Notes under the pieces: generated by a model | Seen by the model: only the letters and a program-made list of their open reading frames with translations | Told to the model about the DNA's origin: nothing | Database searches by the model: none | Assembly: GCF_029211125.1 (NCBI RefSeq) | Contig: NZ_JARGEN010000026.1 | Coordinates: forward strand, 1-64,000 | Origin: Curvibacter soli | GTDB lineage: Bacteria; Pseudomonadota; Gammaproteobacteria; Burkholderiales; Burkholderiaceae_C | Direction: 5' to 3' | Length of the DNA: 64,000 nucleotides | Position numbers and translations under genes: made by a program | In this document: piece after piece, positions 4,158-57,517 of the stretch | How the letters are laid out: each line of letters starts with the position of its first letter | Numbering within the stretch: position 1 is the first letter of the stretch

Positions 4158-4961
4158 TCAGTTCGCGGCCTCGGCCTTTTTTTCCTCGGCCCCGTCATCC
4201 GGAGCCTTGGTGTGCCTGATGAAAATCTGCGCGGCCCAGATGCCGACTTCGTACAGTACGCACATGGGCAGCGCCAGCGCGAGCTGCGACACCACATCGG
4301 GCGGCGTGACCACGGCCGCGACCACGAAGGCCACTACGATGAAATAGCCGCGGAAAGACTTGAACTTGTCGATGCTGACCAGCCCCATGCGCGCCAGCAC
4401 GACCACGGCAATGGGCACTTCGAAGGCGATGCCGAAGGCCAGGAACATGGTAAGCACGAAGCTGAGATATGCCTCGATGTCGGGCGCCGCAGTGATGCTC
4501 TTGGGCGCGAAGCCCTGGATGAAGGCGAACACTTTGCCGAACACGAAGAAATAGCAGAACGCCACGCCCATGAAGAACAGCAGCGTGCTGGAGACGACCA
4601 GCGGCAGCACGAGCTTCTTCTCGTGCGAATACAGGCCCGGCGCGACGAAGGCCCAGACCTGGTAGAGCACCACGGGCAGCGCGACCAGGAAGGCCGCCAT
4701 GAGCAGGATCTTCAGCGGCACCATGAAAGGCGAGATGACCGAGGTGGCGATCAGCGTGGCGCCCTTGGGCAGGTGCGCAACCAGGGGCGCGGCCAGCAGG
4801 TCGTACAGCGTGCCCGGGCCGGGGAAGAAAAAAAGCACACTGGCCACCACGCCCACGGCCAGCAGCGCGCGGATGAGCCGGTCGCGCAACTCGACCAGAT
4901 GCTCCACGAACGGCTGTTCGGTGCCTGCGAGTTCGTCTTCTTTATCGGGAGTGTCGGACAT
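4158..4961 (-). CDS. tatC: Sec-independent protein translocase TatC
   Basis: TatC is the multi-spanning receptor of the twin-arginine export system and binds RR signal peptides together with TatB. The 267-residue sequence has six hydrophobic segments, the N-terminal FVEHLVELRDRLIRA block (about 18-32) with the Glu and Arg typical of the first cytoplasmic face, and the conserved FRGYFIVVAFVVAAVVTPPDVVSQ region near 200-220. The C-terminal tail is charged. It is the last gene of the tatABC block and of the long minus-strand run. A Tat substrate is encoded at the left end of this window (72-1532). Confidence 0.95.
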   Translation of the reverse strand: MSDTPDKEDELAGTEQPFVEHLVELRDRLIRALLAVGVVASVLFFFPGPGTLYDLLAAPLVAHLPKGATLIATSVISPFMVPLKILLMAAFLVALPVVLYQVWAFVAPGLYSHEKKLVLPLVVSSTLLFFMGVAFCYFFVFGKVFAFIQGFAPKSITAAPDIEAYLSFVLTMFLAFGIAFEVPIAVVVLARMGLVSIDKFKSFRGYFIVVAFVVAAVVTPPDVVSQLALALPMCVLYEVGIWAAQIFIRHTKAPDDGAEEKKAEAAN

Positions 4962-5030
4962 GGTGGTGGGGTGGGGAGGGACGTTGCCCGCGCGCGGCGG
5001 GCGCCGACGGCGCCGGTTGCGCAGCCGCGC

Positions 5031-56705: not shown

Positions 56706-56766
56706 GCTGCGGGTTCCTTTGTAGTCGCCGGGTGCGATGGGGTTTCAGGCGGGTTCTGGAAAAGAC

Positions 56767-56803
56767 ATAAAAAAACCGCCGGGCTTGGAGGCTCCGGCGG
56801 TTT
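56767..56803 (-). terminator. Attenuator terminator in the aroG leader
   Basis: On the minus strand: stem AAACCGCCGG / CCGGCGGTTT with an 11-base loop, then TTTTTTTAT. It lies 20 bases after the leader-peptide stop and 61 bases before the aroG ATG. Its 5' arm CCGCCGG is complementary to CCGGCGG at 56849-56855 inside the leader ORF, giving an alternative antiterminator pairing. Confidence 0.88.
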
Positions 56804-56823
56804 GGGGGGTATCTGGTTGCGTT

Positions 56824-56901
56824 CTACGCTTGCGCATCCACCTCTCGTCCGCCGGGGACCGAGAACCAAAAGTAAAAATAGAAGGCGCTGCGAACTTGCA
56901 T
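56824..56901 (-). CDS. Aromatic-rich leader peptide of aroG
   Basis: The 25-residue peptide is M-Q-V-R-S-A then F7-Y8-F9-Y10-F11-W12-F13, then SVPGGREVDAQA. Seven aromatic codons in a row, for all three end products of the pathway, just before a terminator upstream of DAHP synthase, is the hallmark of ribosome-stalling attenuation. The ATG is at or within two bases of the predicted transcript start, so the leader may be translated from a leaderless message, as known for some trp leaders in proteobacteria. No Shine-Dalgarno sequence is present. Confidence 0.85.
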   Translation of the reverse strand: MQVRSAFYFYFWFSVPGGREVDAQA

Positions 56902-56909
56902 GAGGGGCG

Positions 56910-56939
56910 AATGTAGCACAGCCTTGTGCGCCGCCGCAA
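56910..56939 (-). promoter_or_regulatory. Promoter of the aroG leader
   Basis: On the minus strand -35 TTGCGG (56939-56934), 18-bp spacer and -10 TACATT (56915-56910). The expected start is near 56903, two bases before the leader-peptide ATG. It lies directly after the stop codon of the upstream gene (56954). Confidence 0.6.
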
Positions 56940-56953
56940 TGGCGGCTGTTGCG

Positions 56954-57517
56954 TCAGCGCACCACACGCCGACGCAGCCATCGCCGCAGCCGGGCCAGCG
57001 GCGAGACGGGCCGGGCCCCTGGCGCGGCGGACGTCGCCTCAGTGCCTTGCCGCGCCCAGTGCTCATACATGTCGATGAGCAACAGCCCCTCGCCCAGCGT
57101 GCGCCACGACAGCGAGTCGAAGGCATCGAAGCATGCCGGCTCGTCCGGCGTTCCGCGTCCGAGCGCCGCGCGCCAGTGCTCCGCCGCGTCGCGCAGGTGG
57201 CCCAGGCTGCGCAGGTAGGAGCCGTATTCATACATCGCACACCAATCGGGGCCCAGCGCGGTTACCGCGCTCTGGTGCTGGCGCAGCGACGAATCGCACA
57301 GCGTGGTGACGCGCTGCCCCAGCACGGCGACGCCGCCCTGCTGCCGACGCGCCGCGAGGATGCTGTCGATGTGCAAGGCCAGCGCGCGCATGCTTTCACG
57401 CAACTGGCGCGTTTCCTCGTCGGTGACCGATTCCAGCAGGAAACGGCTGATGCCGCCGAACGACTGGATGCTGAACAGGTGGCTCGAAGGGTCCCGGGAG
57501 AGGCGTGGCCGCGTCAT
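56954..57517 (-). CDS. Protein of unknown function
   Basis: The 187-residue protein is mainly helical, with VTDEETRQLRESMRALALHIDSILAARRQ, a YEYGSYLRSLGHLRDAAEHWRAALGRG segment that looks like a single TPR-like helix pair, and a basic C-terminus (ARLRRWLRRRVVR). No signal or membrane segment is seen. I do not recognise a family. It starts 52 bases after tldD; ATG at 57517 is used, with a TTG three codons upstream as alternative. Confidence 0.65.
   Translation of the reverse strand: MTRPRLSRDPSSHLFSIQSFGGISRFLLESVTDEETRQLRESMRALALHIDSILAARRQQGGVAVLGQRVTTLCDSSLRQHQSAVTALGPDWCAMYEYGSYLRSLGHLRDAAEHWRAALGRGTPDEPACFDAFDSLSWRTLGEGLLLIDMYEHWARQGTEATSAAPGARPVSPLARLRRWLRRRVVR

Follow-up and report, generated by a model that had tools for sequence, protein, structure and literature searches.

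A short open reading frame ahead of aroG in Curvibacter soli, within the 64,000-nt stretch of DNA that we analysed (the window), is very probably the sensor of a ribosome-dependent transcription attenuator controlling that gene, as judged from sequence comparison and fold modelling; this level of confidence refers to the attenuation core. A run of aromatic codons, its spacing to a strand complementary to the terminator, that strand itself, the terminator and the position of the promoter are all conserved at the locus. From these parts we infer a start site, stalling, termination and a response to amino acids, as follows. The leader would sense the charging of tRNA-Phe, tRNA-Tyr and tRNA-Trp jointly and thereby control aroG, whose product catalyses the committed step in making aromatic amino acids. 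The predicted transcript starts no more than 2 nt from the leader AUG, and ribosomes would load on this presumably leaderless end. When an aromatic tRNA is short, the ribosome would stall in the run F-Y-F-Y-F-W-F with its front edge at CCGGCGG, which could then pair with the newly made CCGCCGG arm, such that no terminator forms and aroG is read. When all three are plentiful, the ribosome would run on, first covering CCGGCGG, which would afterwards fold back or remain behind it; the terminator would form and transcription would end ~60 nt before the aroG start.

The features of the locus are collected in Table 1. From the ATG at 56901 the leader codons are ATG CAA GTT CGC AGC GCC, followed by the run, TCG and the remaining codons up to TAG. 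Direct reading of the DNA bore out what the sequence-only reading had described here, namely an ORF of 25 codons before aroG in which seven codons for Phe, Tyr and Trp are consecutive, and a terminator 5' arm, CCGCCGG (56800-56794), complementary to CCGGCGG (56855-56849) inside the ORF. The strong terminator that it had placed between leader and gene folds with -19.3 kcal/mol (z = -4.66 against shuffles). The downstream gene encodes 3-deoxy-7-phosphoheptulonate synthase and is the single match of its kind in the 3.36 Mb genome, in which a type II DAHP synthase was not found. The upstream neighbour on the same strand is an ORF of 190 aa that ends at 56954 and to which no NCBIfam model matched. 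Promoter and terminator scanners found nothing at the leader locus, probably because the -10 and -35 elements differ strongly from those of the E. coli consensus and the terminator has a long loop; with the scanners negative, the case for the promoter is a comparative one.

Table 1. Positions of the aroG leader features in the window
Feature	Position	Strand	Basis and remarks
-35-like hexamer TTGCGG (candidate, weak)	56934..56939	-	sequence; 18 nt before the -10
extended -10, TGC-TACATT (TGCTACATT)	56910..56918	-	sequence; 8 nt before the leader ATG
leader peptide ORF MQVRSAFYFYFWFSVPGGREVDAQA, including stop TAG	56824..56901	-	sequence and conservation upstream of aroG
sensor run TTC TAT TTT TAC TTT TGG TTC (seven aromatic codons)	56863..56883	-	sequence and leader counts
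candidate protector hairpin (1:2), TTCTCGGTCC / GGACGAGAG	56842..56865	-	fold; weakly supported
antiterminator 5' strand CCGGCGG, within the leader ORF	56849..56855	-	complementary to 56800-56794
intrinsic terminator AACCGCCGG..CCGGCGGTTTTTTT (CCGGCGG + 7 U)	56769..56802	-	fold and conservation
terminator 5' arm CCGCCGG, the antiterminator partner	56800-56794	-	sequence
Shine-Dalgarno-like AAAGGA of aroG	56715..56720	-	sequence
aroG, DAHP synthase, 374 aa	55581..56705	-	TIGR00034, E 9.2e-162

Conservation was assessed in a set of 110 aroG loci, made up of the Curvibacter locus, 80 loci from genome contigs and 29 from family genomes. A leader with at least five aromatic residues in eight was present at 93 of the 110 loci, and a single pattern, CCGCC..GGCGGTT, recognized the terminator behind 92 of these 93 leaders. 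The sequence-only reading had staked itself on the aromatic run being conserved in relatives, which it is. Carriers are found in Acidovorax, Variovorax, Polaromonas, Ramlibacter, Hydrogenophaga, Comamonas, Limnohabitans, Rhizobacter and Rubrivivax, and further in Roseateles, Pelomonas, Burkholderia, Paraburkholderia, Caballeronia, Massilia, Rugamonas, Janthinobacterium and Oxalobacter. No leader was detected at the Polynucleobacter, Thauera, Azoarcus and Rhodocyclus loci or at two of three Cupriavidus loci (L036, L037). Eight of the 110 loci gave no usable candidate, among them L021 and L056, both of which do show a leader-like ORF.

A further 80 regions comprised 58 aroG matches from other families, two second copies from the same family and 20 matches of at most 54% identity. 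Six to eight aromatic residues in eight were reached in 17 of these regions, compared with 0 of 160 control scans of reversed and reverse-complemented sequence at the level of six in eight; 157 of the control scans gave a candidate, the best with five. The second or distant copies of aroG did not carry the leader, none of the 22 reaching five aromatic residues in eight. Of 300 Burkholderiales genomes searched with a covariance model built from 83 diverse leaders, 76 had one match each at E < 1e-6, and all 30 of these strong matches with an inspectable locus adjoin aroG. The weaker matches with a locus (E of 2e-5 and above) were in 11 of 11 cases not near aroG, and for this reason only matches below 1e-6 were counted; any match at E up to 0.01 is found in 137 of the 300 genomes. 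Since the strong matches lie beside aroG and the weaker ones do not, the leader seems to belong to aroG. Two model matches in another family of the class were likewise both beside aroG.

Runs of five consecutive Phe/Tyr codons are rare, occurring at three places in the 3.36 Mb genome, and genome-wide enrichment is absent (15 in the backward-read control). One of the other two runs lies inside a long open frame and one in a pyrimidine-rich stretch before a gene start. The argument against chance comes instead from the recurrence at aroG. An alternative is that the locus combines a chance aromatic-rich ORF with the ordinary terminator of the 190-aa ORF, which lies on the same strand, could use that terminator and resembles no NCBIfam model. 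Against the conservation, the spacing and the outcome of the control scans, we give this explanation next to no chance.

Several loci at the margins of the distribution deserve mention. One Comamonadaceae locus (L023) keeps TGCTACAGT upstream of aroG together with what appears by eye to be an aromatic run, without an in-frame ATG, possibly through decay of the leader or a sequence error. Related leaders also stand before aroG in a family of the same class outside the Burkholderiales (L274, MNAARASFYFWYYFPKPLAEEGLRSP; L275). Three genomes labelled Planctomycetota and Verrucomicrobiota (L047, L048, L050) have an AroG ~67-71% identical to that of Curvibacter and no leader, for which either transfer or a binning error could account.

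The geometry of the conserved parts is that expected of a switch operated by a stalled ribosome. For the switch counts, eight duplicates among 134 leaders and two loci without a terminator were dropped; 6 of 126 leaders lacked an exact GGCGG and were dropped as well, leaving 120, one of which has no stalled value. In 98 of the 120, the distance from the first base of the last aromatic codon to the start of GGCGG is 11-15 nt. A ribosome with a codon in its A site covers ~13 nt forward, so this spacing would put the strand at the edge of the ribosome just at the stall. Our fold model, a thermodynamic one, took the RNA cut before the terminator 3' arm and gave the probability of pairing between GGCGG and the 5' arm. 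Over 92 leaders, the mean antiterminator probability was 0.85-0.98 when the ribosome stalled at one of the last four codons, 0.12 for a stall two codons beyond the last aromatic codon and 0.37 without a ribosome (0.64 for the Curvibacter leader). The control shuffled the sequence between the run and the terminator. For a ribosome stalled two codons short of the last aromatic codon, the probability was 0.992 compared with 0.648 for shuffled sequences and higher in 119 of 119 leaders, and the gain on stalling was 0.63 compared with 0.425. The antiterminator that had been proposed as possible is thus a conserved pairing, strongly favoured in the model when the ribosome stalls in the run; the model points to an antiterminator exclusive of the terminator that a stalled ribosome would free.

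Compensatory changes in the stems, which had been raised as a further check, were found in part. Covariation of the base adjoining the core extends to three places (leader, arm and arm: C/G/C in 65 and T/A/T in 21 of 120), the terminator pair next to the core being A-U in 18 cases and G-C in 58, and 0 of 20000 permutations matched the three-way covariation. However, the AroG tree contains two independent pairs of changes for the terminator base, with the leader-strand partner following in about one of the two; with about two independent events, the three-way covariation is supportive and we do not lean on it. Double changes in the antiterminator pairs were as numerous as observed in 447 of 500 shuffles. 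Alignment A2 holds 83 of the 120 leaders, thinned by similarity, and its rows were selected for GGCGG and CCG[CT]C, so the invariance of those columns is partly a product of selection.

The least certain step is how termination is secured in the fed state. The sequence-only reading had noted a small hairpin, TCTCG/CGAGA, framing the antiterminator strand. Both sequences are present, but in Curvibacter the hairpin (-9.7 kcal/mol, z -0.19) is ordinary compared with shuffles. Over 83 leaders, TCTC and GAGA are paired in 84.9% of cells, and shifting one side by 2 still leaves 79.2% paired. We had expected such a protector hairpin to keep untranslated RNA terminated, and the shuffle control did not support this: without a ribosome, the mean antiterminator probability was 0.367 for real leaders and 0.223 for shuffled ones, the real value being lower in 69 of 120. 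The protector hairpin is therefore weakly supported, and since the antiterminator of the Curvibacter leader has a probability of 0.64 without a ribosome, untranslated RNA might read through. A ribosome resting at the stop codon and covering the antiterminator strand was also considered. It fits just 46 of 120 leaders, GGCGG lying behind the ribosome in the other 74, Curvibacter included. The moving ribosome may instead cover the strand during synthesis of the terminator, with the hairpin refolding behind it.

That one leader reads all three aromatic amino acids had been proposed from the Curvibacter run; most leaders, but not all, have codons for all three. Among 143 leaders, Phe occurs in 143, Tyr in 141 and Trp in 114, and all three in 112; the 29 leaders without Trp include 13 of the 14 of Oxalobacteraceae type. 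The last four codons of the run hold all three in 91 of the 143, the commonest letters at the run end being Y-F-W-F. It could be argued that the attenuator is effectively a sensor of Phe (and Tyr) only, with the single Trp codon as a passenger, as Trp makes up just 119 of the 973 aromatic codons counted (595 Phe, 259 Tyr) and is missing altogether from those 29 leaders. We consider this unlikely, given the presence of Trp in 114 leaders, its placement as the penultimate codon of the run in 83, and the fact that the stall zone with the strongest antiterminator contains all three amino acids in 91. Such a Phe/Tyr sensor would be a variant of the attenuation core, as would the led form discussed below, and their likelihoods overlap with that of the core.

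The codons themselves are also unusual. Phe is encoded by TTT in 254 of 390 leader codons (65%) compared with 103 of 712 (14.5%) in aroG at the same 90 loci, which is compatible with a run that stays slow or unstructured in GC-rich genomes but is no proof of it. This usage also bears on whether the peptide, and not the codons, could be the sensor. In an arrest peptide, the aromatic nascent chain would stall the ribosome through a free amino acid or metabolite in the manner of TnaC, for which there is precedent (PMC8429421), and uncharged tRNA would play no role. The order and neighbours of the residues vary (FYFYFWF, FYFGYFWF, AYFFAYFWF, FFTGYFYF) but the residues remain aromatic, a pattern more in line with codon counting than with a specific contact between chain and tunnel, and the synonymous bias towards TTT is likewise against a peptide sensor. 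We rate the arrest peptide as very improbable and retain codon counting by a translating ribosome as the preferred reading.

A predicted transcription start near 56903, almost at the leader ATG, had led to the proposal of a leaderless mRNA. This start fits the TACATT at 56915-56910, and the layout recurs in many genera, with a -10 ending 6-9 nt before the ATG; it is, however, confined to some lineages. With one pattern, such a -10 was detected in 65 of 92 leaders drawn from all lineages, and all 65 are of the Comamonadaceae/Sphaerotilaceae type. When the best -10-like site was scored with no fixed pattern in 143 leaders (dropping L097, the same locus as L139), it lay 5-9 nt from the ATG in 107, some of them weak (e.g. 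L181, L268), compared with 21.5 expected from shuffles; without the 18 loci that had been found by that spacing, the count is 89 of 125. Transcription starts ~7 nt past the -10, and by this rule the 5' end of the RNA would lie no further than 2-3 nt from the AUG. In Comamonadaceae and relatives, the mRNA is thus probably leaderless, as predicted from promoter spacing.

In Burkholderia, Caballeronia and Oxalobacteraceae, inspection by eye mostly finds TATAAA or TATAGT ~22-39 nt before the ATG. For part of these leaders the -10 scorer agrees and places the site at 18-36 nt, and for others it selects weak sites at different distances (4 nt in L054 and L058, 7 in L268, 10 in L062 and 12 in L057). 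Because of this distance, the leaders of these groups are probably led, that is, preceded by a 5' UTR. The two big groups are separated on the AroG tree, where the state (leaderless, led or none) changes 12 times in all; four of the "none" labels are artefacts (L074 and L099, where identical leaders were merged; L021, which was missed; L028, at a contig end). As a 5' UTR apparently does not prevent the device from working in these lineages, the Curvibacter attenuator might be led as well, starting further upstream and possessing an ordinary 5' UTR, with the spacing of TACATT incidental. We find this distinctly improbable. The extended -10 sits 6-9 nt from the ATG in those 65 of 92 leaders, sites with other letters recur at the same 6-9 nt in families f23, f44, f13 and part of f10 and f4, and of the 45 places at which the exact promoter-ATG signature occurs in 60 genomes, 43 are attenuator leaders.

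The leaderless layout, as predicted for aroG, has a counterpart at leuA. In the Curvibacter genome, GTGCTACATT followed by an ATG within 4-40 nt occurs at two places, the aroG leader and a leucine leader, MQKISLALLLTSDGRSW, which has a terminator-like hairpin and lies upstream of leuA (L116; contig C81, ~4946-5017, minus strand). In the latter, 8 nt separate GTGCTACATT from the ATG, and its mRNA is predicted to be leaderless. A looser promoter pattern added two matches in this genome, both at the starts of long ORFs without a leader. With a spacing of 5-9 nt, the pattern was found at 45 places in 31 of 60 genomes (Curvibacter included), compared with four for the reversed pattern. These are 26 aromatic leaders at aroG, 17 leucine-rich leaders at a LeuA homologue and two places, in one genome, that are neither; in the genomes scanned, the exact promoter-ATG arrangement is therefore almost exclusive to attenuator leaders. 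The LeuA proteins below the leucine leaders are of two types, ~25% identical, of which four were named by family models. The same kind of leader precedes both (L119 and L130 compared with L115 and L132; leuA_bact and leuA_yeast models), so this leader either persisted through a replacement of the enzyme or was gained together with it.

It is tempting to suppose that leaderless initiation itself contributes to the working of an attenuator regulon made up of two genes, aroG and leuA, and that the ~130-nt terminated RNA or the aromatic peptide could also act in trans, as has been reported for the trpL leader of Sinorhizobium meliloti. We offer this tentatively and hold it to be rather unlikely. 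If it were true, the switches would report both the supply of aminoacyl-tRNA and the capacity for leaderless initiation (the 70S or initiation-factor state), because only ribosomes able to initiate on a bare 5' AUG could read such a leader.

The ribosome-dependent attenuators of Proteobacteria are of the trpL, pheL, hisL, leuL and ilvGL type, with which the aroG leader has in common a short ORF with clustered codons, a competing antiterminator, a terminator and a biosynthetic gene downstream. It differs from them in that three amino acids would be read at the shared first enzyme of one branched pathway. The leucine leader of the same genomes resembles it in the spacing of GTGCTACATT to the ATG, the short leader and the hairpin like an intrinsic terminator, and is unlike it in having Leu codons and leuA downstream. 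Searches against Rfam gave no leader family at gathering score in the window or in 10 related loci, the lowest E-value at the leader being 2.3, to an unrelated sRNA. A survey of proteobacterial attenuators was reportedly made by Vitreschak in 2004. In the open literature, we found no aroG or DAHP synthase leader peptide described for Burkholderiales; an earlier prediction is possible, the subscription literature having been mostly outside the search. The consulted portions of PMC2965389 and PMC3110155 make no mention of aroG.

The closest counterpart by gene is the Vibrio DAHP synthase-tyrA operon (aroAI-alpha-Y > tyrA), where a putative attenuator before the DAHP synthase gene is listed on the basis of a prediction website; this is a gammaproteobacterial case in another operon, and the portion consulted gives no leader peptide (PMC1173090). 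The same portion describes putative attenuators near tyrA operons, including a Bordetella operon, and its table holds no Burkholderiales aroG (PMC1173090). In Actinobacteria, the consulted section of another paper saw no attenuator-type structures for Phe and Tyr operons (PMC1262725). With respect to the 5' end, the report on trpL of S. meliloti places the start of the attenuator RNA at the leader ATG (PMC7298713), as we predict here; there the start is a reported one, the organism is an alphaproteobacterium, and the leader reads Trp only, before trpE(G). Leader peptides made from leaderless RNA are also described for ilvB of Corynebacterium diphtheriae (PMC5784534) and reportedly for mycobacterial poly-Cys ORFs (cited in PMC13236596). 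Both differ from the aroG leader in their amino acids and genes and in belonging to Actinobacteria, where leaderless mRNAs are common.

Attenuation by stalled ribosomes and leaderless leaders in other groups were thus already known, and what would be new is the reading of three amino acids at a shared first enzyme and a leaderless form that aroG has in common with leuA. The finding that 43 of the 45 signature places are attenuator leaders opens the question of why some attenuators are leaderless to direct experiment. By means of such a switch, Burkholderiales could tune the shared first aromatic step to all three of its products at the RNA level, a tuning that E. coli divides among repressors and isoenzymes.
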